Shown piece after piece: positions 34,183 to 61,311 of a stretch of DNA of 64,000 bases. Source of the stretch: Rusavskia elegans. Its lineage: Eukaryota; Ascomycota; Lecanoromycetes; Teloschistales; Teloschistaceae. A program made the position numbers and the translations under genes. How positions within the stretch are numbered: the stretch's first letter is position 1; each line of letters opens with the position of its first letter. The stretch covers positions 1 to 64,000 of the forward strand of contig SAUG01000019.1 in assembly GCA_011316305.1 (NCBI GenBank). Reading direction: 5' to 3'. The notes under the pieces are model-generated. The model saw only the letters and a list, made by a program, of their open reading frames with translations. It had not been told where the DNA came from and made no database searches.

Positions 34183-36321
34183 TTAACAACTGCCAAAGAA
34201 AGCCAAGATTCGCTTTACCAAGGTTTCCTTCCCGTTGAGATACCAATCGAAGATCCCAGTGAGTCCGAGGTCTGGCTTGTACATGCTACACTTGCCTCCG
34301 CAGGACACTTCCCTACACACACACCAAGCTCCTGGTATTTTCTGTCGCTCCCGATGCTTCTTCTTCGCGTTCTTGGATCGGTCGAATCTAGAATGTTGGG
34401 CCTTGAGGCATGCTGGCACAGCGACTTCGTGCCTTGTGCTAGTCTTTTTGGCACTTCGGTCAAGGTGACTTAACGTTGTCATATCCGTTGTTGGATTTCC
34501 ACACCGCCCCCTGTTGCCTTTGTTTGGTTTCGGTTCAGGCGCGTTCAATCTGGAGAAGGCTCGGTCATGTGCAGGCTTGAGCAGCCCGTACATCGTAGCG
34601 GCTTCAGGTTTCTTCTGCAGAAAGGGGCTCTTTGTGAGCCTGGCCAAATTGTTGTTCGTCTGCAGTGGCTGTTGTAGGCCATTCGTTCGCGACCTGAACT
34701 TTTGGACAGGGGTACGAAATCCAAGTCCGCGAATTGTCTGTGTAACCTGTAATGGCCGCGTCATTACGTCTTCGTAGATGGGAATATTGCAACCGGGTGC
34801 TGTAGGCGCTGGATCGCAGACAAGGTGCCTCTTTTCAGCTGGCGGTCGCTGCGCGGTGGCTTTGGAGCAGTCAAGATTGGCCTTAGGGTCCTCGCTCCTA
34901 CATTCTGCAAGTGGTTCAAAGCGTACCGTAGATCTTTTGGCTGGGTAGGCTGACGACCGTGAGGTGAGGATATCCAAAGCTTGGAGTGCGGTGGGTCTTG
35001 CTTTCCAGTCTGGCTGAGTCATAGCTACTAGGAGTTTGTACCACCCTTCTTTATCGGATAACTTCCCCTTGACAAGCGCAGTGTTGACTTGGGAGATTCT
35101 TTTCGCGACTAGTCGACCACGCTGATACACAGTCCACCCTTCTGGTACCGCTCTCACCTCGTCCTGGATACCTTTGAACATACCACGGATCTCAAGACCA
35201 ACTACTCCCAATGGATATATATCGGACTTCGCATCGTAAGGTTCACCAGTCAAGATCTCCGGTGCCATGTAACCGGGAGTGCCACAAATAGTCTTGGCCT
35301 CATGTATCTTGTTCGCGTAGCCCAAGTCTGTAAGAACGTAACGATAGGGTCGGCCGTCTAGGAGCAGAATATTCTGTGGTTTGATATCCCGGTGAATGAT
35401 TTGGTGACTGTGTAGAAATCCCATAGCATCGCAGCCTTGCCGCATGAATTCATAGAAAATCCTTTCGTCTGGAATGATTTTCTCGAGAGACGTCTCGCAA
35501 AGAGGCATGAGGATTCTGACGATGAAATTCTCGGGGGTTGTCTCGACATTGAACGCGAGTAGATTGAGAATCCCGTCCTGCAATCCAATTAGTCAGAATC
35601 TATGAAAGCAAAAAGATGGCCCTATTACATGACAAAAAGTCTTCATGTACTGGATCTCTCTTTCCTGTTGCTTGAGAACATTGCGTGCTTCCACAGGTAT
35701 TGTAATCTCCTTGAGTGCGTAAACAAAACCCGTACGCTTTCTCAGGACCTTAAGAACGCGGCCTTGGCCACCTGAGTCTAGAGTAGTGCCGATCAAATAC
35801 TCTGACATTCGTAGCCCTGCGTGCGGATCATCCGTGGTCGGTACGAGAGGGGAAGTGTCGAGGTGCTGAGTCCAGATATCGGTGTTTCTTTCATCGCCCT
35901 TGGGGTACCGAAATTCGAAAGCGCAGCCTGCAACTTGGAGTGAGGCAAGATAGACGACTGCCCGGGTTCCATTGTTGATCGTTTCTCCAGCATCGGGCGT
36001 TATAGCATCAATCACTCGAGTCCCTTCGGACGAGGTATCCGTGAGCATCTATGACCGTCGTTGCCGACGAAGCCACAGATAGCAATGATAAGGTGCGGCG
36101 ACATTGCCGGACAGGACGACACGGTTGTCAGGCTGGGTACCGAAAGACAGGAAATCCGTTTTTTCGGGAGACTGACGTAAACTGTTCGGCTCAGGCAAAG
36201 GAATGCGGAGGACCAGTCCTTCACGAATGCCTCTATCATGGAGGCTCCGGTTGGAAGCAGACAGGACAGCCCGTTGTGCGAGCTCGTTGGTGGGCACAAG
36301 GTAGAACAGCACGTTGTCCAT
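34183..36321 (-). CDS. FHA-like plus Ser/Thr protein kinase, interrupted by a TAG codon
   Basis: From ATG 36,048 two exons (to 35,629, then 35,577-34,183; 51-base intron) encode 604 residues. These include a glycine loop (DSGGQGRVLK, 91-100), the lysine in YALKE (113), HRDIKPQN (202-209), DLG in place of DFG (224-226) and GTPGYMAPE (239-247), so a complete Ser/Thr kinase. The basic, low-complexity C-terminal tail ends in a Cys-rich segment (CVCREVSCGGKCSMY). Directly upstream in the same frame, from ATG 36,321, lies FGTQPDNRVVL...HCYLWL, then TAG (36,051-36,049), then MLTDTSSEGTRV. Together these read as an FHA domain whose conserved Trp codon (TGG) appears changed to TAG. The kinase could still be made from the internal ATG without the FHA half, or the gene may be dying. 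Its pathway is unknown. Confidence 0.7.
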
Positions 36322-38233: not shown

Positions 38234-38711
38234 TCACCCAAACAAATTCCACCCAACAAATCCTACGGCAGAAATCACCACCCCCGGCCCTGCATGCTGC
38301 GCCATGCCTGCATCCTTCCCATACCACACCGCCGCCAACGTATCACCACCCGCCACCACCGTTCCAAGCACCACAAGCAACACACTCAATGCTCTATACT
38401 CCCCGAGACAAAACAAAACCAAGACACAAAGCGCCAGCGCGAGTTCGCGGGCTGAGAAGAGCAAGAGATAGGCGCGGGGATCGGTTGCCATTTGTGGTGG
38501 GGACTGAGATTTCGACGAGGAGTAGGAGGGGGAAGGGGAGGGGGTGGAATAAGATAATGTATGTGAGGCAAGAAACATATGGGTTTCGGAACGAGAGGAT
38601 TGAGACGGTCAGCATTGTCAGGCCAAGGAGGAGGGATGTTGTCTGGAAAATGGGGCGGACGAGGGAGGCGTGAGTGTTGATAAAGGTTGTGAGGTGGGCG
38701 AGGGGATGCAT
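38234..38711 (-). CDS. DUF4267-like four-helix membrane protein
   Basis: Two exons (38,711-38,577 and 38,503-38,234) with a 73-base intron (GTTTCT...CTCAG, phase 0; the donor is unusual) give 134 residues. Four hydrophobic helices are visible: SLLLGLTMLTVSILSF, then YLLLFSARELALALCVLVLF, then ALSVLLVVLGTVVAGGDTLA, and VVISAVGFVGWNLFG. The ARELALAL segment and the short GGD turn fit the DUF4267 family of small integral membrane proteins found near fungal metabolic genes. The family's biochemical role is unknown. It lies 0.6 kb from the terpenoid locus, but membership is not shown. Confidence 0.6.
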
Positions 38712-39292: not shown

Positions 39293-41081
39293 TCACGCAA
39301 ATTGGGCCTGCTTCCTTCTGAGGACCCGGATTGTTGCGGACGTTGGCGGCAGAGCTGCATCGCCAATCACCTTGGCCTCCGGTTGCGGGCCAGTCGCCTC
39401 GATGTCGTAGTTGGTGGTGATGTAGGCCAGTAGAACCTTGAGGAGTTGGACGGCGAACCATCGTCCAGGACTGGAAGTCGAATTAGACACGGATGCCGCA
39501 TATCGAAGACAGAAGATCGCTCACCAAGCATGCTTACCGTATCCGAACCCGACATACGTCGACGTTGGCTGCGCAGCGTCGAGATCTCTCGTGGATACAG
39601 TCACATCTTCTCCTTTCGCTTGAGCCTCCCTTTGTGATTCCTCACGACCATACTTCAACCTAGCATACCTGAAAGGGTCATACCTCCAAGGTTCGGGATA
39701 GAACCGGTCGTCATTATGGAGACCCAGTACGGGTACCCCAAGCCAACCACCCCGGGGGATATGTGTACCATCAGGTAGACTCAAGGCCTCTTGGTGGACG
39801 ACTTCTTTGGTCAGGCCTTTGATCAGTATGGGGTGGTGCCGTGCAGTCTCTCGGATCGCTGAGTCGCATAGTCTGAGTCGTGAAGATTGCGGGGTTTATC
39901 CAGTCCTCTTCGCACTGGACTAAGCATGCTGCCTCCTCACGGAGCGTCTCGTATGCTTGGGTATCAGGCGGACAACAGATGATATCGAGCAGCAGATTCG
40001 ATGCTTGGATGATCATCGACGACAATGCCGCCAATCCCTGAATTGGCGTCAGCCCTGCTGTAGCAACTCCAAGGGACAGAGAAGTGGTACTAGTAGAAGA
40101 ATCCATACCGCGAGCATACCTGAGTCTGCAATGTCGCGGATGCTACCGAGCTTCGCTGAAATCCGGGCACTCTGGGAGATCAGATCGTACTTCTTCCCGG
40201 CCTTCAATCTTGATGGACGGCTTTTGTGCTTGCAACTGCCGCTCAACCATTGGAATGAGGGTCTTCATCGTCTTCGACCTGTAATACCGCAGGGGTAGGT
40301 TGAATATCGGGACCAGCATGCCTTTGAAGGCTCGAGGTAGTTGTCCGATGACAAGCGTCCCCACACCCATTGCGAGGACATAGCGTAGGAACGAAACCAA
40401 GAATTTTGGGTCACGACCCAACGGCAAACCGAAGAAGACCCGACTCATGGCGGGTAGAACGATGTCTTGCATACTGCTGTAGACATTCAACCTCTTCCAT
40501 TCCGAGTCGTCTGTGCCAAAGATCTCGAGGGTATTGCGCCATATCTCTTCGATCCTGGGTTCCTGAAGCTTGTCGAGGTTCTTGGTAGGCTTTCACCAAT
40601 GAAACGCTCCAAGAAGAAAACGGTGGTGTCAAATCGACGCCGATTACCGTACGGCATGCCTCTCGTTGCGAATCTCGGTACTTGACAGGGTAGAGTCCGG
40701 CTGGTTGGAGAACCACTTGATGTGCTCGGGTGGAAGCATGGCTTCGTTCTGCAAGCTGGGCTCGTTGAGCAGGAATGGCCGGCCACATTTCGAATGCTTG
40801 CCAGGACGCACAAGTCAGTAATCTGATCTCTCAAGAAGGGGGTCTGCTACCGGGCTGTATCCGGCTGACAGTGTCGAGATACCATCCGTCAATTGACGCA
40901 ACGAGGCTCTGGCCGAACTGAACCATTCATTTCGGGTCCCGACGATAGGGATCGAGGTAGGATAAGTGACAGACCCGAGGAGCAGTGGCTGAACGATGAA
41001 GTGCAAGACAAGATAGATGAAGGCTGCAGCAAGCCAGATATGAGCCGTAACTTCCATGATAGAAAGCCACATGGTTGTCAT
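39293..41081 (-). pseudogene. Cytochrome P450, apparently decayed by frameshifts
   Basis: Reading from ATG 41,081: an N-terminal anchor (IWLAAAFIYLVLHFIVQPLL), the proline-rich YPTSIPIVGTRNEW, a 54-base intron (40,850-40,797), then HSKCGRPFLLNEPSL. The helix-I region follows a 62-base intron near 40,114-40,053. ExxR is in DSAIRETARHH, the PERF-like segment is FYPEPWRYDPFRY, and the heme loop FGYGKHACPGRWFA has its Cys codon split by a 54-base intron (39,524-39,471). All landmark regions are present, but the frame must change without any splice signal at about 40,650, 40,608, 40,190 and 39,870. Each change equals a one-base indel. It is a paralogue of the P450 at 50,296-51,965 by alignment of the substrate-recognition region. 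When intact it would have been a membrane-bound oxidase for the triterpenoid. Sequencing error is the alternative. Confidence 0.65.
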
Positions 41082-42436: not shown

Positions 42437-45400
42437 ATGTCAGAGGAACAGCTCCAGAGCGCTGCTCGCCGTTCACTTCAAGATGCCATCAGTTTTTCTT
42501 TTGATGCTCAACAGCCAGATGGCCACTGGGTAGCCGAGGTTTCTGCAGATGTCACCTTCACCGCCCAATATGTCATGTTCAAGTACGCCATCGGCTTTGA
42601 TCTCAGCGACGCAGATGCGCTACAGCGATGGCTTTTGCAGGACCAGAGAGAAGACGGATCATGGCCTCTTGCACCGAAAAATCCAGGGAACCTCTCAACA
42701 ACTACAGAAGCCTATCTGGCGCTGAAGATCCTCGGCCTTCTACCTGAACATCCGGCGATGCTGAAAGCCAGGGATTGGATCATCGCAAACGGTGGTGTTG
42801 CCAAAGTTCGGTTTTTCACGCGCTTCTTTTTGGCAACCTTTGGCCTGGTTCCATGGGCTGCTATACCCCAGATGCCCGTTGAGCTGATCATGATGCCACC
42901 TTCATCACCTCTCAACATCTATACCCTCTCTTCCTGGGCCCGGAGCACTTTAATTCCAGTCCTGATCGTCCGGCACCACGAGCCAATCTATCCCCTGCCA
43001 AACGGTTGCAGCGCGCACAATGACTTTCTGGATGAGCTTTGGATTGATCCTACCGATAAGAATGTTCCATATGCTCCTCCACTCTCCACATTGTTTAAGG
43101 AGCGTGACGCTATCCAATTCGGCTTTACCGTAGCGGACAAAGTCCTTGGGCTGCTAGGTGGTCTCAAGAACTTTCCCTTACGCAAACGTGCCAGGAGGAA
43201 ATGTATTGAGTGGCTACTGGACCATCAAGAAGAAGCTGGTGACTGGGCGGGCTTCTTCCCTCCAATGCATGGCAGCGTTTGGGCTCTGATACTTGAGGGC
43301 TATCCGCTGGACCACAAGCGCATTATCCTGGGGATGGATTCGATCGAGCGACTGGCCATTACTGACTCACGTGGTAAGCGGATCGCTCCGACTGTGTCCC
43401 CAGTCTGGGACACTGCCTTGATGATGAGTGCTTTGTGCGATGCAGGCGTGGGGAGTGATCCCCGTGTCCAGCAGGCCGTCGACTGGGTCAAAGCTCGTCA
43501 ACAGTTAGGCCCCCAAGGCGACTGGCGTATCTACAGTTCGAACAAGCAGGCGGGTGGCTGGAGCTTCGAATACCACAATACTTTCTATCCGGACGTTGAT
43601 GACACGGCGGTCATAGTGATCGCCCTGATCAAGCATGATCCATACTTCATTGGGTCTGATTGCATATCGAATGCTGTCAAGTGGATACTGGGTATGCAAT
43701 CTTCCGATGGTGGCTTTGGAGCGTACGACTATGATAACAACAAGCTCTGGCTTCACAAAATACCATTCAGCGATATGGATAGCCTTTGCGACCCGAGTAC
43801 CGCGGATGTCACGGGTCGAGTCTTGGAATGTTTTGGATTTCTCTTGTCACACAAGAAGGGATCCTGGGACCAACAGCTGATGCATCAAGTCAAGGCCTCT
43901 TCTGAAAATGCAATATCATGGCTGCTGCGGGAGCAAGAACACATGGGCGCATGGTGGGGCCGTTGGGGAAACAATTACAATTATGGAACCGGCAACGTCC
44001 TTCGTGGGTTCGTAGACTTCGCTCACGGCAATCCGAAAGTTCGGAAGTCTGTCGCGCGTGCTACTCAGTGGTTCGAGTCGGTCCAGAATGCCGATGGCGG
44101 CTGGGGCGAGGACCTGCTATCTTATACCTTCCCCGAGATGGCGGGTCGAGGTGAAAGTACGGCTGCGCAGACAGCGTGGGCTCTTCTTTCATTGCAGCCA
44201 TACCGTTCACATCCACACCCGGCTGTTGAGAAAGGCATGCGGTGGCTGATCTCCAATCAAGCCGTCAAGTCAGAGAACGGCAGATCATGGTCGACTGCTC
44301 TGTACACTGCCACCGGATTCCCCAAAGTCCTCTATCTAGGGTACCCATACTATCACCATTTTTTTCCAGTCATGGCTCTGAGCAAGTACCTGCAGGCGGA
44401 GCAAGAAGCGGGCTTCAGAGCTATCGAGCTTCCTACCCCTATTATTGATCTGTTGAGTCGTCCAAGCCTGCTCCTGATGGTCATTGGTAGCCGTGGAGAT
44501 ATTCAAGCCCTTCTGAACATCGCCAATCTAGTTACAGCCTCATATGGTCATCGCGTGCGAATTGCAACTCATCCGTGTCACCAAGACTTGATCGAAAGTG
44601 CAGGAATGGAATTCCACTCTGTTGGTGGTAACCCTGCCGAGTTCGCGAAAGCTCTTACAAAGAACCCGAGCATACTCAAGTCCGTATTCACTGGTGACCT
44701 GTATGAAATGCGGAATCGCTTTCGGAGGATGATTGACAGCTACTGGTCTTCGAGCTTCGACAACGAGATCCAGATCGGCAGAGGGAAGAAAGCAGAGAAA
44801 CTCGACCAACGTCCGTTCATAGCTGATATCATAGTCTCGAACACGCCGACTTTCGCCCACGTCCACTGCGCCGAAAAACTCCAGACACCGCTTTTGCTCA
44901 TCTCCATCCAGCCAACGATACCTACGAGCGATTTTCCCCATGTCTTCACTTTGACCGGACCTATTTTCCAAACGGGTAGTCTGTGGAACTATCTGTCCTA
45001 CATCATGGTGGAACTCATGTAAGTATCTATAGATCTATCCGCTTACTCTGTCTTGTCCAGCACCTGTCTAATTAGACCCAGTAATTGGCTCGCGCTTGGA
45101 TCGTATTTGAATCACCTTCGGGAAACATCATATGGAATGAAACCTGTATCATGGACCTGGGCAGTATACGACGCTTTCAAGATGCACATCCCTCATATCT
45201 GCCTGTGGTCCCCGTCTCTTCTTCCACGACCAGTAAATTGGGATTCGAACATTGACGTTGCAGGCTACACCTGGGGACGTGAGCCTCCCTTCGTGCCAGC
45301 AACACTCTTGAAGAGTTTTCTCGAGACGAATCAACCTGTCGTGGCCGTCTCGTTTGGATCGGCAAGTGCACCAGATGCGGAAAAGCTGATGAGTGTGATT

Positions 45401-46348
45401 TTCGAAGCCACGGCAATGGCTGGGGCAAAAGCTGTCGTATGTCTGAGTGGTTCTAAGCTTGGCGCCCTGCAAGCTCCCAACCACGTCTACCTTGCTGACC
45501 AAATCCCTCACGGGTGGCTCCTACCACGGGTTCAAGGCTTTATACACCACGGAGGCGCGGGGCACACCGCCGTAGCATTGAGATACGGGGTTCCAGCGCT
45601 AGTCATACCCTTTTTCCTTGATCAAAACTTCTGGGCCGCCAAAATACACCAGCTACATCTAGGACCAGCAGCTCTCGATCACCGCATCTTAACAAGCCAA
45701 AAAGTGGCAACAGAGCTACGGGATATACTGTCCCAGAAATACCAGCGCCGTTCTTTGGACCTGGCGAATCGGATTCGGTCAGAGCAAGATGGCGCAGCAG
45801 TAGCAGCCGCGGCTGTCGCCCGCTTGCAAATCTCAGCAGCAACGGCAAGCACGTTCTGTGACATCCTACCTGACTTAAAGGCAACCTGGAAGGACACCGA
45901 TTCTGGCCTTCACCTCTCCGGTGGAGCCGCTGCTTGCTTGATTTCACAAGATGTCTTGAAATGGTCCGACCTGGGGCTTGTGTCCGGAATAGATTGGGCC
46001 GAGCGACGATCACTAGCTTCCAGCAGGATGGTGATGATGGTCAATAAGATCACCGATCTTCTCTACAGCCTGATCTCACTAATCTACCTGATCTTGAGAA
46101 GAGTTGTCGATCCCTGGGCGAAGACTAAGGCAGAAGAAGACGGCTATTCAATCAAGACAAGAGATCCTATCCATCAGGCCAGGATAAAGCAGGCCGAATA
46201 TGATCTACAATTCATCAAGGAGCATGCCGGCGAGCTCCAAGACGCGGCAAGCATTGAGAACCAAATTGTCGCGAATTGGCAGATTTTGAGCAAGAGACGC
46301 TTTCACGCGAAGCTCACGGACACGTTGGGGAATGGGCACGTTTCATAG
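42437..46348 (+). CDS. Bifunctional triterpene cyclase-glycosyltransferase (EfuA/FsoA type)
   Basis: Exon 1 (42,437-45,018) and exon 2 (45,082-46,348), joined by a 63-base GTAAGT...CAG intron in frame, encode 1,282 residues. Residues 1 to about 655 form a squalene-hopene-cyclase fold: repeated QW motifs (for example QREDGSW, QSSDGGFGAY, QNADGGWGEDLL) and the acid motif DVDD at about 386-389 (FYPDVDDTAVI), not the DCTAE of oxidosqualene cyclases. From about 670 a GT28/sterol-glucosyltransferase-like domain follows: VIGSRGDIQALL, GHRVRIATHP and, near 1015, FIHHGGAGHTAVALRYGVP, the UDP-sugar loop. A charged and partly hydrophobic tail ends the protein. This fusion is known from enfumafungin synthase EfuA (Hormonema carpetanum) and FsoA (fuscoatroside, Humicola fuscoatra), which cyclise an oxidosqualene-type substrate and glycosylate the product. 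The exact skeleton and sugar are not readable. All motifs are intact. Confidence 0.93.
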
Positions 46349-47923: not shown

Positions 47924-49816
47924 ATGGAGTTTCAACAGCTGCCTCACTCGAACCTTCTCTATCGAGGCTGGAATCAGAGAATTCCGGTTATCATTGTACT
48001 CTCAGTCCTGTTACCTTTCCTTGCAACATGGCTTCTCACATCCTGGCGAGCGAGTCGAGCTATGAGGCTTGCACGGACGACGGCCTCAGGACTCAAACGG
48101 CCACCGACGATGCCGTACGCCGTACCCGTCTTTGGTCATCTGTTTCAATTCATGAGGGACGGCCAGTCGCTGATGTTGAAAGCGTCGTGAGTGCTTCCTT
48201 GCTCACCGTTAAGCACATGCCATGGCCTAAATCGGTGAATTAGCACATTCATTGACCACACCGTACCTACTCAAATTATCCTGCCAGTCTTCTCCAACTA
48301 CCTCGTCTCTGGTCCAGAGTCCGTCGTGACGTACTTCAAGGATTCGAGGGACCTATCCTCAACGTCTAGGAGTCTTGCAATGATGGTCAACGGGTTTGGC
48401 TGCCCAAAATACATGGTACATTTGTTCAAGCCGCAGCAGCCTTCCGCGGCGTCATCAGAACAGCCAGGAGAGAACATTGAGCAGCTCATCCACAGAGCGA
48501 TCCAAACGGGGCTTTCCGGCGCCCATCTAGATGCTCTGACAACTCGATATCAGGAGAATTTGGCAGCAGCAGTTGAAGCAAATTCGATGTTCGATACAGG
48601 TAACAGCTGGATAGAACTACCGGACCTTAACGCCTTCGTCGAGAAGCGGGTCTTTGAGGCTGCGGTGCAATCCATGTTTGGAACTTATATGCTCTCCTTG
48701 AACCCTACTCTCGCGGATGATTTCTGGGCATTCAATCGGGTCATCGGTACTCTGTTTATGGGTCTTCCGAGGTGGTTGAGCCCAGCCGCATATCGAGCAA
48801 GGGATAAGATGTTACAGAATATCGAGAAGTGGCAAAGACATGGAGGAGAGTACTGCGACATCGAGAAGCTGGGCGACATCGATTGGGAGCCTTACTACGG
48901 AAGCAAATTCATCCGAGGGAACCAACGATTGCTTGATAAACGAGGGATCATGGATCCAACAGCCAGGGCGGCGGAGAACTTTGCGTTCATGTGGGCGTAA
49001 GTCCCCGACAATGCCCCGTCGCTCCGTCTACGAGCTAACCGACTTTCTGCCTGCAGAATCAACTCCAATTCTGTCCCCGCTGCGACTTGGTTCCTCTACG
49101 AAGTCCTCCAAGATCCCCAGCTCCGGAGCCGAGTACGTAAGACTATTACCCCTGCAGCCTCGGACACATCACTACAGAAAGAGCCGAACAAGACCGTCCT
49201 CACTTTCGATACGCCCAAGCTATGCTCGGATCCGCTTCTGCAATCACTCTACGCGGAAACCCTTCGTCTCCGCGTCGCCATCCTGGTTTTCCGCGAACCA
49301 ACACGAGACAATTTCTCCTTCCGTGGATGGCACATCAAAAAGAGCGAAGTCCTCAGTATCTCCACCCGCACCGAAGCCATGAACCAAGACATCTGGAACA
49401 CCGGCAGCGACGAAGATCCTCATCCACTTGACACCATGTGGGCCGATCGTTTCATCATAGACCCCAAAAATCCACGCAGTGGGCCACTCCGACTCCCCCA
49501 AGAGAAACGCAAAAAATCCACCATCCCAGCTATGCAAGTCAACGGGCATACTGAAGCTCGCAAACCATACTTCTCCATGGATGGCTTATCAGCGTTTTGG
49601 ATCCCGTACGGTGGTGGGACAAGTCTTTGTCCGGGACGGCATTTCGCGAAGCAGGAGATCATCACTACTGCTGCGATCTTGCTGGCTGCTTACGACTTTG
49701 AATTGATTGATGTGGAAGGTAAAGATTCTCCGCAAGTAGATATGAGCTGCTTTGGGTTCGGGACGATGCCGCCAGATAGAGCTATACCATTCCGGATACG
49801 ACGTTCACAAGGTTGA
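47924..49816 (+). CDS. Cytochrome P450, CYP7/CYP8-like fungal type
   Basis: Three exons (47,924-48,186, 48,244-48,996, 49,057-49,816) with 57- and 60-base introns encode 591 residues. The short first intron, using TTAG at 48,243, was preferred over the CAG at 48,287 because only it keeps frame and yields STFIDHTVPTQIILPVFSNY. An N-terminal anchor (IPVIIVLSVLLPFLATWLL) and PYAVPVFGHLFQF open the protein. The I-helix segment AINSNSVPAATWFLYEVL lacks the usual A/G-G-x-D/E-T-T, as in CYP7/8-like enzymes. ExxR is at E406 (YAETLRLR) and the heme loop is FWIPYGGGTSLCPGRHFAK with Cys530. This class oxidises steroids and terpenoids in fungi. Placed downstream of and co-oriented with the cyclase fusion, it probably oxidises the triterpene scaffold at the ER. 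The site of oxidation is unknown. Confidence 0.88.
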
Positions 49817-50295: not shown

Positions 50296-51965
50296 ATGAT
50301 CTCCGTTCTTGAATTCTTCACCAACCATGGAATCTTATCCATGCTCCTCCTATGTATCGTTCTATGTTCCGTTTCCAAATTACGAAGATTAGATGAACCT
50401 GTGATATCAGGCGTCCCATGGGTAGGGAGAGGCTCAAGCGGGATCTACTTGGGAAAAAGGGCCTCTTTTTCCAGTCTGACCAATATGCAAACGTGGATGG
50501 CCGATGGTTACCGAAAGGTAGAGGAACAACTCCGATAGATGCTGTTAAAGCAATCTTACTGACGTTCTGACTCTCACAGTACTCCAAGAGGGGCAAAACC
50601 TACCTCCTTCCAGACTTCTCAGGAAAGCCTATATTCATCGTTCCACCCACCCAGCTCAAATGGCTTATCGACCAACCCGACGAAATCCTCAGCACCGCAG
50701 CTTTCCACTACGATGCCCAACAAGGCGACTACGCATTCACCCATCCCCGGATCCTTGGCGACCCATACCACGAGCACGTTCTCCACAAAAGCCTTCCACG
50801 GAAAGTCGGCGCTCTGGTCCCTGATCTCTGGGACGAAGTAGCCCACACCTTTGACGACGTTTGGGGCACCGACACCACCTCCTGGAAAGAAGTCAGCGTC
50901 CATTCAAGCATCGACCACCTCGTCGCTCCCGCCGTCAACCGGATGATAATCGGCTTGCCCCTGTGTCGTCACTCACACTATCTCTCCGAAATGCACAAAT
51001 TCACTATGAACGCCGTCACCATAATGACCGTCCTCCAATTCACCCCTAGCGTTCTAACCCCCCTCATCGGCCGCCTTCTCGCCATCCCTATCCGGCGCCG
51101 ACTAGAGGAATCCCGCCGACACACTCTCCCCATCATCACCGAGCGCTTGGCCAACTTCGAACGGAAACAGCATGACCCAACCTTCAAATGGCGAGAATCA
51201 AACGACTACCTAAGCTGGCACATTTCTCTCGCCTACTCTGAAAACCGGCCTGACGAGCTCAACCCCGACATCATCGCCCGGCGCCTCCTAGCTTTGATTT
51301 TCGCAGCCCTACACACTACCGCCATGGGATCCATAAACTGCGTTCTCGACATCATCGCCTCACCGCCCTCCGACGGCTACATCCCCAGCATACGCTCCGA
51401 AGTAACGCAGGTCCTTACCGAGGCAGGCGGAGTCTGGAGCAAAGCGGCTCTAAACCGATGCCATCTCACTGACTCCGCGCTTCGGGAGAGCTTGCGAGTC
51501 AGTAACTTCATGAGCCGGAACGTCCAAAAGAAGGTCTTGCATCCCGAAGGACTCGTGAACAAAGCCGAAGGGTGGACCGCACCGAGGGGAGCATACATCG
51601 CTGTGGATATGCATAATCCGCAGCATGATCCTGAGATCTATCCTGATCCGGAGCGGTATGATGCTTTTCGATTCGCAAACTCGCTAACCCAGGAGCCAAC
51701 CGCCAATCCGAGTACCGAGACCTCAAAAGCGAACACCAACGCCCTGACCACGAGCGGAATATTTCTACCTTTTGGCCACGGCAGACATGCCTGTCCCGGC
51801 CGATTCTTCATCGCGGTAGAGATCAAGTTGATGCTGGCGTATATGGTTATGAATTATGAGATCGAGCCTCTTGTGCAGAGACCCAGGAATCGGTGGCTGG
51901 GTGGGATTAGATTGCCGCCTACGAAGACCATGATTAGGGTGAAGAGAAGAGAGGGTAGTGTGTGA
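50296..51965 (+). CDS. Cytochrome P450, fungal microsomal type
   Basis: Two exons (50,296-50,517 and 50,580-51,965) with a 62-base intron (branch point TTACTGACG) give 535 residues. N-terminal anchor ILSMLLLCIVLCSVSKL, then SGVPWVGRGSSG. The segment HPRILGDPYHEHVLHKSLP is the conserved substrate-recognition region of the fungal GA14-synthase/O-methylsterigmatocystin-oxidoreductase-like group. The I helix reads ALIFAALHTTAMGS, ExxR is in SALRESLRVS, the PERF-like segment is YPDPERYDAFRF, and the heme loop LPFGHGRHACPGRFF has Cys479. All catalytic landmarks are intact. It aligns along its length with the decayed P450 at 39,293-41,081, so the two flanking P450s of the locus are paralogues. A tailoring oxidase for the cyclase product is the most likely role. 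Confidence 0.88.
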
Positions 51966-52939: not shown

Positions 52940-54270
52940 TTGCTTGAACGTTTGGAGAATCAAGAATATCGCTCGGGGGTTGTTGATACAGAATTTATCC
53001 AAGTGGTAAAGTCAGACTACATACCGAAGCTCTGGCAAGGGACGCTACTCTGCTACGCTGTACTTCCAGTCTGCGTTTTCGTCAACACGGTCGCTGGTAC
53101 CAAACTTCCTCAGATCGAGAGTGTCCTGCTCGTTGTATATCTTCTTAGCTTCGTTAGATTCCTTGTGCCCTTGGCATACCTAGCGCCCCACGGCACAGCT
53201 CACGACATCTACGCAACCTTTCTGAATAGCGGCGGAAGGAGTTCTCAGGGTCTTTTATTTTTTGTGGGTGTTTCTGGGAATGCGTTTGCCTTCCTCGGTA
53301 AGTAACAGTTGCTTAGGGCCAAAGACCTCCTAGCCAATAGGTTCAGGTGCTGACTGTATTTACCGCGTACGTCGAAATGGTCGATTTGATATCAAGATTG
53401 TTGTTAATCCAGTAGCAGATAAGTGAAGAGCTTAAAAATACAACCACCGTTGTTCCTCGATCCATTGTCTATGGCCTCCTCGTAAACGGAACCATTGGCT
53501 TCGCTACCTTAACTGCTACCCTTTTCTGCATCGGTAACCTCGAGGCTATTACCGGAACCGACTTCGCGTACCCCTTTATCGCCATATATGCGCAAGCCAC
53601 TCGATCCAAGGGGTGCCAATGCGACAATGGTGGCTCTGGTCCTTGTGGTTGGACTTGGCCTTAACATTGGAATCATGGCTGCGGCAACTCGTATGCTCTG
53701 GTCTTTTGCCCGTGACTGAGTTGTACCTGAAAGGAGGTACAATAGCCAGGTAAGACACATGGGCTGATATGTATGCCAAGACGCAGGACTAAAATTTGTT
53801 CCAAGTGAATGATAGCACGAGAATGCCCTTTCATTCCTGTCATCACCACAACAGTTCTTTCGGTACTCCTTATTCTCATCAGCATAGGTTTTGCCGTTGC
53901 CTCCAACAACGCAGTAGCGCTCACTTTGGCGGCTCTCTACGTATTGTACCTTATAGCATGCGCCCTTCTTCTCTGGCGAAGATCGCCTGGCTATATCAAA
54001 CCACTCGCAGCGTACAGCCAGTTCCATACCGAGAAGTCTAGTTGGCCGGGCAGCGCCGGTAAACTGTTCTGGAGCCCTTAGAAGATACCGGGTGTACTGG
54101 GCATTTCCATCAACCTCTTCGCTTGCGTCTATTTGCTTATCATCGAGATCTTTGTATCTTTATTGGCCACCAACTAAGGAGGTCGATGGAGCGACTATGT
54201 ATTACAGCGTCTTACCCATGGGCGCTGTTGCAATCTTCGGTGCGGTTTACTACTTTTTCTAGGGTAGCAG
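52940..54270 (+). pseudogene. Decayed amino-acid/choline permease (AAT/GABA-permease type)
   Basis: The frame at 52,940-53,305 reads KLWQGTLLCYAVLPVCVFVN, PHGTAHDIYATFLNSGGRSS and FFVGVSGNAFAFLG, all typical of fungal GABA/choline permeases. After a garbled junction it resumes VVPRSIVYGLLVNGTIGFA (about 53,455) and later VITTTVLSVLLILISIGFAV and WRRSPGYIKPLA. In-frame stops break it after WSFARD (near 53,720), at TAG 54,079-54,081 and again near 54,175. The N-terminal third of the transporter is missing. It may once have been an exporter or nutrient carrier at the edge of the terpenoid locus, but nothing ties it to the pathway. Confidence 0.75.
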
Positions 54271-58578: not shown

Positions 58579-61311
58579 TTAGACGCTGATCCAACGAGCC
58601 ATGAATTTCTCAGTGATAACTTTGGCTTCGTCTACCAAACCTAGTTCAAGTAAGAGCTGCACACTTCCCCGGATACCTGATTCCAGGGCAGATGATACTA
58701 TTGACTGGTCAGAGTGCAAGATACAAGGATGCTTGGAGAAATTTTGTAACTTACTCCATGCATGCGTGTAGCTAATGACCATCAGTGCATCACGAAGTTG
58801 AAGTAAGATTGGTGTAGCTTACCTGGTGTGCTCGCCAACGAAGATCATCTACCTGCCATCAGTGAGATGTTCACCAGATTCCTCTCAAGATGGACTTACA
58901 TTATTGTGCGTCTCGAAATAGGTGGGGATATACAGCTTGTGCATACCGATGGATGGTGTTGCCCAGCTGGCACTTTCAAGGGGGTCCAAGGCCCAGCACT
59001 TCCGATTATATCTTCCGGTGTACTGTTCCCTCGCTATCTCTCCATGAATCTCGATCATGGCATTCAGCACGTACTGGACGTGTTCGAGCTCGGGCAGGGA
59101 GGCGAAACGAATGCCGAAGTCGGCACTAGTGTAGCTGGCTAACATTACGCCTGGACCTGTGGAGTTGATTTTGTAGCTGGGGTAGCAAATGCTGCCAATA
59201 CCGGGGATATCCGTCGCTGTGGAGCAACTGCCGTAAATGGGCTCGGGATAGTGTTCCCAGAAACGAGTCGAGAATTGAAGTGCCACCTTGAACAAGTGAG
59301 TCCTTGAACATGGGGTAGCGATATGAGTTGACCCACTTTACAAACAGTATCATACGGCATAGCGGTGATCGCATTCTTGAGAGTGGGGTTAAACGCTGAG
59401 TCAATAAGACTTCTAGAATTCATGGTACCTTTCGATCCTACGACTCACTTGTGTTCGGGAACCGCCAGCTTCGGACTTTGGAGAATGGCACAGCGATGAT
59501 GGCATAATCATAGGTCTTATTGCGGAAGGCGACATCCGTGTAGTTGTCTTTCCATGACAATTGCACTTGGTTTGTTTCTGGCAGAAACTGTGCCCTCTCG
59601 ATCGAACGGCCCATTGTAGTGATGGGACCGACATGAGGGTAGAAGGAGTTGGGTAATTGGCTGAGCCCCTATGAAAAGGTCAGAGACATTCGAAGTTGGA
59701 GGCAAGAAGCGCCAAGTCGCTGATGAAAGAGTAATATTGAACCTAGGAATCTGAAATAGCAGAAGTAAAAGGAAGAAGATCATACCCCATCAATAGTACG
59801 CCAAGTAGTTGCACCAAAATAGGCGCATGAATATCTATCGTTCCATTCGTGAGCATAACGACTGCGGACCCAAAGCCTGACAACACTTACACAAACTCCC
59901 ACAAGGAGTTGCCTCCATACCCCCCAAAATCACCTGCATTGACGACTCGATCTGTAGCGTTGAGAGAATATCCAAGCTGGTTGTGAAGATAGGCAAACTC
60001 TGACCAGTCGTCTCCGCCCAGACCTCCCAGACCCGAATTGATAAAGGTTTTGTACGCGGAGAATACATTTTTTGCTACTGCCGCCATGCTCTCTGGGTTG
60101 CAGCTGATTTCAGAAATGATGTCTGTGATATTTCCCACAATCGGATCTGCGGGAACAGGGACGGTCAATTCCGGGTTGTTCTTAACTTCTTTGGCAGTAG
60201 GTGGAAGACCATCTGTATCCTTGAGCCCGCTGAAGTAATAAAGTCCATTTGGAGATTCTTGAATCCAGGGAATGAAATTGACGGTGTAGTTCGGTCGTCC
60301 TTCGTTCATTTGGTTCATGATCTCACCAAGCTGAAAGACTAATTGCTGGTCGTTGATAGGGGTCGTCTCGTTGCTCCCGGTGTACTGGACACTCTCCGGA
60401 AAACGCATTGGACCCATGTCTTGATATTGGTAGTCAAATGGTCCACCTTCAAGGTACGCTGTATGAATTCGCCTATCGTTGATCAGTAAGATATTCGGCA
60501 TTCGTTATTATAGGCTCTGTCGTCGTGTACACACCCCCCAAGTCGCTGACCGGCTTCCACGATCTCCAGGTTTTGAAAACCGCTCATATTCAGACAGAGC
60601 TGCAAGCACCGTCAGCGTCACTCACGTAGAGAATGGAGCATACTAAGCTACCCATGTAATCAGGCCAGCCATTCCGGCACCAACAATAGCAACATCTGGA
60701 AAATCCGCTTTAGCATGAGGATCTTGCCGCCGCTTCGATCAACGTCTCGCCTCGATAGATCACATACGTTTTGCTTTAGCCTGAGCGGCATCGACTGCGT
60801 TTGTCTCTCTCCCTCTCAGCGCTTCCACGCCATCAAACCATGGGCCATTCGCTTCGATACCGCTTGCATTGGTCATTGGGATACTTGCCCGTTTACCCAG
60901 CCTCGTGCCCATTTCAAGATGGCGCTTCTTCAGCCATTGTCTGGTATTCTTATTGACCTTCAGACCCAGGCTACGGCCGAGAAGCTCATTTTGCGATGAC
61001 CAAGCGGACAAACATCCGTGGCTGCGGATATCATCGGGCAGAACCCAGACCAGACGATCTATATCCCGATGCTCCACTTCAGAGATGTGATGGGTCTCAA
61101 AATCATCTTTGACATTGTCGCATGCTCCATACGTCACTGTGAAGGGGTACACCGACTCATCCGATAGAGAAAGATGGATGTTGGCCGAGCGAGAGTGCAG
61201 TGGCGCCCTAAGCTCAAGCTTCACCGGAAGTTCAATTGCTGCTGACTGTCCAATGGCCGCGAGTAGCAAATGAATTACCAAGCTTCTTGATCTTGATACC
61301 GGAAGCCGCAT
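58579..61311 (-). CDS. Secreted flavin L-amino-acid oxidase-like protein
   Basis: Eleven exons with introns of 50-117 bases assemble into 707 residues in one frame: 61,311-60,768; 60,707-60,652; 60,599-60,535; 60,472-59,891; 59,834-59,786; 59,668-59,449; 59,395-59,337; 59,286-58,900; 58,848-58,823; 58,771-58,755; 58,697-58,579. ATG 61,311 starts a signal-peptide-like segment (SLVIHLLLAAIGQSAAIELP). After about 180 residues comes the FAD Rossmann motif DFPDVAIVGAGMAGLI, then IVEAGQRLGG^RIHTAYL and YQDMGPMRFP, hallmarks of the amine oxidase/LAAO family. Near the end MIFVGEHTSYTHAWISSALE is the second FAD-binding segment. It should oxidise amino acids or amines outside the cell or in the secretory path, releasing ammonia and hydrogen peroxide. 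It lies 6.6 kb from the terpenoid locus with decayed DNA between, so a shared role is unlikely. Confidence 0.85.

Follow-up and report, generated by a model that had tools for sequence, protein, structure and literature searches.

The first 64,000 nucleotides of contig SAUG01000019.1 of Rusavskia elegans, a lichen-forming fungus of the Teloschistaceae (assembly GCA_011316305.1), here called the window, contain a gene in which a squalene-hopene-type cyclase and a sterol-glucosyltransferase-like enzyme are encoded as one protein; two intact cytochrome P450 (P450) genes, B and C, and a broken third, A, lie beside it (Table 1). The fusion gene begins with an ATG at 42437 and ends with a stop codon at 46346-46348 on the plus strand, and its two exons encode a predicted spliced protein of 1282 residues in a single reading frame, with the cyclase half N-terminal and the glycosyltransferase half C-terminal. 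A preliminary description made from the sequence of the window had proposed one intact two-exon gene with the architecture of EfuA and FsoA, the fusion enzymes of enfumafungin and fuscoatroside biosynthesis; its place, domains and motifs, together with a domain junction inside exon 1, bear this out.

Table 1. Positions in the window of the fusion gene, its motifs and the neighbouring P450 genes
Feature	Position	Strand	Remark
Fusion gene, exon 1	42437..45018	+	Whole cyclase half (residues 1-660) and first part of glycosyltransferase half
Fusion gene, intron	45019..45081	+	63 bases, GT...AG, one in-frame stop inside
Fusion gene, exon 2	45082..46348	+	Rest of glycosyltransferase half and stop codon
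DVDD, residues 386-389	43592..43603	+	Proton-donor motif of squalene-hopene-type cyclases
Codon TAC for Tyr430	43724..43726	+	Equivalent of Alicyclobacillus cyclase Y420
GSRGD of sterol-glucosyltransferase half	44486..44500	+	Sequence motif
HHGGAG of donor-binding domain	45545..45562	+	Sequence motif
P450 B, intact, 591 residues	47924..49816	+	Three exons: 47924-48186, 48244-48996, 49057-49816
P450 C, intact, 535 residues	50296..51965	+	Two exons: 50296-50517, 50580-51965
P450 A, broken copy	39305..41018	-	In-frame stops, frame change; heme-loop region still recognisable

The full fusion protein depends on splicing because the intron carries an in-frame stop, a TAA at 45020-45022; the predicted intron has the donor GTAAGT and a length that is a multiple of three. 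Two acceptors keep the frame, 45076 and 45082 (with the alternative the intron would end at 45075), and we chose 45082 because the resulting product of 1282 residues needs no junction insertion to be aligned with most full-length relatives; the relative P0001 likewise has 1282 residues. A homologue search with the fusion protein gave 719 matches passing an E-value of 0.001, of which the best 120 were analysed, and the counts of fusion relatives given below refer to these best 120 of 719. Glycosyltransferase sequence is carried by 85 of them, and in 49 of the 85 the match ends at the exon-1 boundary (residues 186-188 of the glycosyltransferase half), as would be expected of open reading frames that cover exon 1 only, in genes with an intron at the same place; the intron position is therefore old. 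The junction between the two halves lies at about residues 660-675, within exon 1, an open frame of 866 codons. That two neighbouring genes had been misread as one was ruled out, since the domain junction lies within this single open exon.

Pfam identifies SQHop_cyclase_N (8e-101) and SQHop_cyclase_C (2e-108) in the cyclase half, and Glyco_transf_28 (7e-8, in exon 1), EryCIII-like_C (2e-16) and UDPGT (5e-12; both in exon 2) in the glycosyltransferase half; DVDD, GSRGD and HHGGAG are all present. The nearest solved structures to the cyclase half are squalene-hopene cyclases (4.5e-123), and a predicted model of exon 1, with a mean predicted local distance difference test score (pLDDT) of 81 and low values over much of the glycosyltransferase part, matches 2sqc with a target-normalised template modelling score (TM-score) of 0.90, while the best solved match of the glycosyltransferase half is yeast sterol 3-beta-glucosyltransferase (6e-43). 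The features of EfuA/FsoA-type fusion enzymes are thus found together: a squalene-hopene-type cyclase domain with DXDD, a sterol-glucosyltransferase-like domain fused C-terminally to it in one gene, and, as described below, two halves that both belong to the fusion lineage and whose trees match. The enfumafungin cluster (efu) of Hormonema carpetanum likewise has a fusion of a DXDD cyclase half and a sterol-glucosyltransferase-like half (PMC9476466, PMC11371599), and the fuscoatroside cluster (fso) of Humicola fuscoatra has a cyclase-glycosyltransferase fusion beside P450 genes (PMC12667498).

Among the matches listed, the nearest protein comes from a Rusavskia elegans metagenome assembly (94% identity over the full length), followed by those of Xanthoria calcicola (82%) and Polycauliona (80%), and the full-length Teloschistaceae fusions P0001-P0008, from Rusavskia, Xanthoria, Polycauliona, Wetmoreana and others, are 68-94% identical; the relatives were clustered at 90%, so a close one may sit hidden in another row. 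In a FastTree phylogeny of the cyclase half (121 rows, Shimodaira-Hasegawa-like supports), the fused rows form one clade of 88 rows (support 98), with two rows lacking the glycosyltransferase inside it. Apart from one divergent row, P0069, this clade divides into two main groups. Clade I has 37 rows (support 100), among them Chaetomidium, Apiospora marii, Xylaria, Trapelia and Cytospora. Clade II has 50 rows (support 94) and contains the window gene; its members include Hypoxylon, Stachybotrys, Paramyrothecium, Diaporthe ilicicola, Aspergillus ellipticus, Rhynchosporium, Oculimacula, Endocarpon and the Teloschistaceae. Separate trees of the cyclase and glycosyltransferase halves of 22 full-length fusions agree on three groups, namely clade I, a Hypoxylon-Diaporthe-Paramyrothecium group and a group with Teloschistaceae; the halves were therefore fused once and have been inherited together. 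The same agreement rules out a recent fusion of unrelated halves, and the outcome that the preliminary description had reckoned with as fatal, halves in unrelated clades, is not seen: both fall in the same fusion lineage.

Neither EfuA nor FsoA is named in the match list of the best 120 of 719. Because Humicola fuscoatra, the FsoA producer, and Chaetomidium leptoderma both belong to the Chaetomiaceae, we used clade I as a stand-in for FsoA, which would then belong with clade I; the window fusion is grouped apart from this Chaetomiaceae relative, in clade II. We also ruled out that the cluster is unique to the window, since the fusion is common to many Teloschistaceae and to the 85 glycosyltransferase-bearing relatives in the best 120 of 719; the fusion type proposed earlier is supported, and the locus is not a lone find. 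Homologues of efuA have been recorded in Lecanoromycetes among other classes, and fusions in unrelated fungi (PMC9476466, a review of the 2018 efuA work); the available parts of three lichen surveys (PMC11457338, PMC9907504, PMC12711211) describe no such cluster in Teloschistaceae, and no title among the open papers listed in literature searches announces a Teloschistaceae cluster of this type.

The fusion gene is accompanied by two intact P450 genes and one decayed, as first described. P450 A has five stops in the P450-matching frame over 41018-39918, one of them in what is probably an intron, matching that of P450 C in position, and its match switches frame near 39,900, where an intron is possible. 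Linkage in the relatives was read from equally long contigs and locus-tag numbers in the match tables rather than from neighbouring DNA. By this measure P450 B and the fusion are on equally long contigs in 11 of the 22 named clade-II organisms (Polycauliona, two Caloplaca-like species, Wetmoreana, Rhynchosporium, Oculimacula, A. ellipticus, Hypoxylon texense, H. crocopeplum, D. ilicicola and Stachybotrys), and in six of these 11 the locus-tag numbers differ by one or two. A tree of P450 B (41 of 43 matches plus the window) shows the same groups as that of the fusion. P450 B is a recurrent partner of the fusion in clade II, whereas all 15 named clade-I organisms, including that of the Chaetomiaceae, are absent from its 43 matches. 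In Wetmoreana P450 C shares the fusion's contig and adjoins P450 B; in two Caloplaca-like species (P0138, P0126) it makes up the latter half of a protein model in which B and C are merged; and in Letrouitia it again adjoins P450 B. Among the matches listed (best 120 of 250), its occurrence next to the fusion or P450 B is confined to Teloschistales, and no non-lichen fusion bearer appears there.

The stretch of the window at 22.7-64.0 kilobases (kb) was translated in six frames, each stop being replaced by X, and scanned with Pfam. Besides the fusion gene the scans returned pieces of kinase, alpha/beta-hydrolase, P450, amine-oxidase, permease and DUF4267 domains, and an ErbB match below threshold, so they do detect exons; over the same range neither an acetyltransferase nor a 2-oxoglutarate oxygenase was returned, nor any transcription factor or complete transporter. 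An amino-acid permease domain fragment of about 50 residues, perhaps a relic, lies beyond P450 C at 53609-53761 (+), and an amine-oxidase piece at 58897-59298 (-), a DUF4267 protein at 38255-38500 (-) and a protein kinase at 34975-35787 (-) flank the cluster and look unrelated to it.

In gene content the locus differs from each of the known clusters. The fso cluster has the acetyltransferase fsoF, the oxidase fsoC and the P450s fsoB, fsoD and fsoE, and efu has a homologue of that acetyltransferase (PMC12667498) as well as the 2-oxoglutarate oxygenase EfuI (PMC12667498, PMC9476466); both the acetyltransferase and the EfuI-type oxygenase that go with an enfumafungin-type cluster were looked for and not found in 22.7-64.0 kb of the window. 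Hypoxylon rubiginosum has a fusion protein, P0042, that falls in clade II, and a relative of P450 B, P0136 (51% identity; the two are on contigs of different size, and linkage was not seen), but the fernane-type cluster of that species is described with an acetyltransferase, an O-methyltransferase and a flavin adenine dinucleotide (FAD) monooxygenase (PMC8403587), none of which was found at the window locus.

An enfumafungin- or fuscoatroside-like glucan synthase inhibitor, formed through C2 oxygenation, acetylation and E-ring cleavage with the missing steps supplied by genes elsewhere, is in our estimate unlikely as the product. It would suit a fusion enzyme of the same kind, and the H. rubiginosum cluster is described as sharing two P450s and an acetyltransferase with efu (PMC8403587), a fusion protein of that species falling in clade II; a genome search covering the PF02458 acyltransferase family also gave five matches on other contigs, namely C35, C102, C181 (two) and C87, with none on C92. 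Yet neither an acetyltransferase nor a 2-oxoglutarate oxygenase was found over 22.7-64.0 kb, one P450 is broken, and whereas the C2-hydroxylating FsoD and the E-ring-cleaving FsoE share 55-56% identity with their counterparts EfuH2 and EfuG (PMC12667498), P450 B has no match in the 15 named clade-I organisms and P450 C none from them among its best 120 of 250. The tailoring therefore seems to differ from that of enfumafungin and fuscoatroside; this fits the preliminary expectation of a product unlike the known ones, on grounds other than the decayed P450.

A genome search for glucan synthase (PF02364) reported a single match, L016 (G000:C145:105500-113500). At hot spot 1 it has FLTLSLRDP, described as the wild-type form (PMC7711656), which argues weakly against an inhibitor of this enzyme as the product. 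The equivalent of R1361, the main echinocandin-resistance residue (PMC7711656), appears to be kept, in a comparison with yeast rather than with filamentous fungi, and the hot-spot-2 stretch is DWVFRCCLS, versus DWVRRYTLS in yeast; these residues speak neither for nor against target-site self-resistance.

Three positions of the cyclase pocket differ from the bacterial enzyme, and by sequence comparison only the Phe605 equivalent separates the fused group well. Bacterial Gln262 is Phe in the window, as in 83 of 85 fused and 16 of 35 unfused relatives; Phe437 is Met, as in 81 of 85 and 34 of 35; and Phe605 is Leu, as in 75 of the 84 fused relatives with a letter there, against 3 of 35 unfused. 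At residue 430 the window has Tyr, the residue of the Alicyclobacillus enzyme, where all 119 relatives with a letter (84 fused, 35 unfused) have Phe; the 14 compared rows of the Teloschistaceae clade (10 named) all have Phe as well. The equivalent residue, Y420, shapes the product in bacterial cyclases. As a control we counted the clade-II columns that are constant but for one row: the window is the odd row in one such column, and 29 of the 50 rows are so in at least one. The number is therefore ordinary, and the notable point is the location of Tyr430 in the pocket. An assembly base error may be its source. In the available parts of the literature on Y420-equivalent mutants, we found a single use, within a multiple mutant.

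Residues 422-458 (37 residues) hold 5 of the 77 differences from the R. elegans relative protein, and at S422 and S423, as at Tyr430, the window matches the bacterial enzyme; local gene conversion across this stretch is an unproven explanation.

These observations bear on whether the cluster is decaying, with one P450 already lost and a cyclase harmed by Tyr430, so that little or no product is made. The broken P450 A and a pocket residue, Tyr430, that no other of the 121 fungal cyclase rows shows speak for such decay, which we nonetheless regard as quite improbable: the three other genes, about 7 kb of coding sequence, have undisrupted frames once spliced, the fusion protein keeps 94% identity to the R. 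elegans relative over its full length, the count of sole departures is ordinary, and Tyr is the residue of the bacterial enzyme.

The fold raises another alternative, in which the cyclase uses squalene or makes another skeleton and the glycosyltransferase half mainly glucosylates ergosterol, so that hopanoid or sterol glucosides would be the products. DVDD and the overall fold are indeed those of squalene-hopene cyclases, and the glycosyltransferase half is nearest to the yeast sterol enzyme; but the characterised fusions use oxidosqualene and act on a fernane-type 3-hydroxyl (PMC12667498), and a hopene lacking the 3-hydroxyl would give the glycosyltransferase no acceptor. The genome also has a separate sterol-glucosyltransferase-like gene, L013 on C145, with a long N-terminal part, and in the glycosyltransferase tree the fused domains form their own clade apart from it, a placement that carries a long-branch warning. 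We consider products of this sort very improbable.

Two further cyclase-like loci occur in the genome. The second cyclase gene, at G000:C150:103365-107282 (L002), has VSDCTSE in place of DXDD, as expected of the housekeeping lanosterol synthase, and G000:C5:88541-89276 (L003, L004) gives two short matches that resemble squalene-hopene cyclases but are interrupted in frame by stops (TAA, TAG) and may be exons separated by introns or a broken second cyclase gene.

We favour, with moderate confidence, a bifunctional enzyme of the EfuA/FsoA kind that makes a fernane-type triterpenol and glucosylates it directly at the 3-hydroxyl, with subsequent oxidation by P450 B and P450 C. The model is FsoA, which converts 2,3-oxidosqualene to isomotiol and glucosylates the 3-hydroxyl, and which alone yields isomotiol together with its glycosylated form; the terpene cyclase (TC) domain of EfuA makes fernenol (PMC12667498). 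By analogy, the cyclase half would protonate 2,3-oxidosqualene through DVDD and fold it to a fernane-type pentacyclic alcohol such as fernenol, isomotiol, motiol or a close isomer; the glucosyltransferase half would then transfer glucose from UDP-glucose to the 3-hydroxyl, and P450 B and P450 C would oxygenate the scaffold or the glucoside. In the characterised systems the two activities are not consecutive: a 2-hydroxylated intermediate needs acetylation before it is glucosylated, an order demonstrated for FsoA and for the chimera EfuA(TC)FsoA(GT), in which GT is the glycosyltransferase domain (PMC12667498). Because no acetyltransferase was found in 22.7-64.0 kb, this order, acetylation and then glucosylation, is unsupported here, and cyclisation and glucosylation are probably consecutive, without the 2-O-acetyl gate of FsoA.

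Several points weigh against this proposal. No linkage of P450 B to the fusion was seen in the other 11 of the 22 named clade-II organisms, although the clustering at 90% may hide some cases: R. elegans, X. calcicola, Blastenia, Haloplaca, Paramyrothecium, Endocarpon, H. rubiginosum, Apiospora kogelbergensis, Caloplaca aetnensis, Pyrenodesmia sp. 3 and Hypoxylon sp. FL1150 (the last checked by eye). An acetyltransferase could act from another contig, PF02458 genes being present on four others, and one beyond Pfam's reach would be missed by the scans. Clade II is not joined in the half-trees, which leave an open fork, and its support of 94 comes from the 121-row tree only. The scaffold type is suggested by fold, motif and clade, with FsoA placed by a family-level stand-in, and Tyr430 departs from the relatives at a catalytic-pocket position, so that the scaffold could differ even from that of its own clade.

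The locus is a conserved, intact fungal gene cluster in which a known kind of enzyme occurs in a lichen variant without an acetylation step at the locus; the preliminary interpretation is partly supported, in that the gene, its architecture, the P450s and the lineage have held. The scaffold family includes the precursor of an approved antifungal, and fusion enzymes build the skeleton of antifungal sugar-bearing triterpenes. Why the two domains are fused, when they act non-consecutively in the characterised enzymes, is a puzzle raised in PMC12667498, for which a cluster lacking the acetyltransferase is a natural test case. A possible, if doubtful, extension is that Teloschistales clusters in general use the fusion consecutively, with no acetylation gate, one protein releasing a triterpenoid 3-glucoside that P450 B and P450 C then oxidise. 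If true, consecutive use would explain the fusion of the halves and give lichen triterpenes a fungal gene source, and Tyr430 might shift the scaffold of the window species within the family. The genetic origin of lichen triterpenes is still unsettled; such compounds are cited from Xanthoria resendei, of the subfamily to which Rusavskia also belongs, and the locus offers a concrete fungal candidate for their source.

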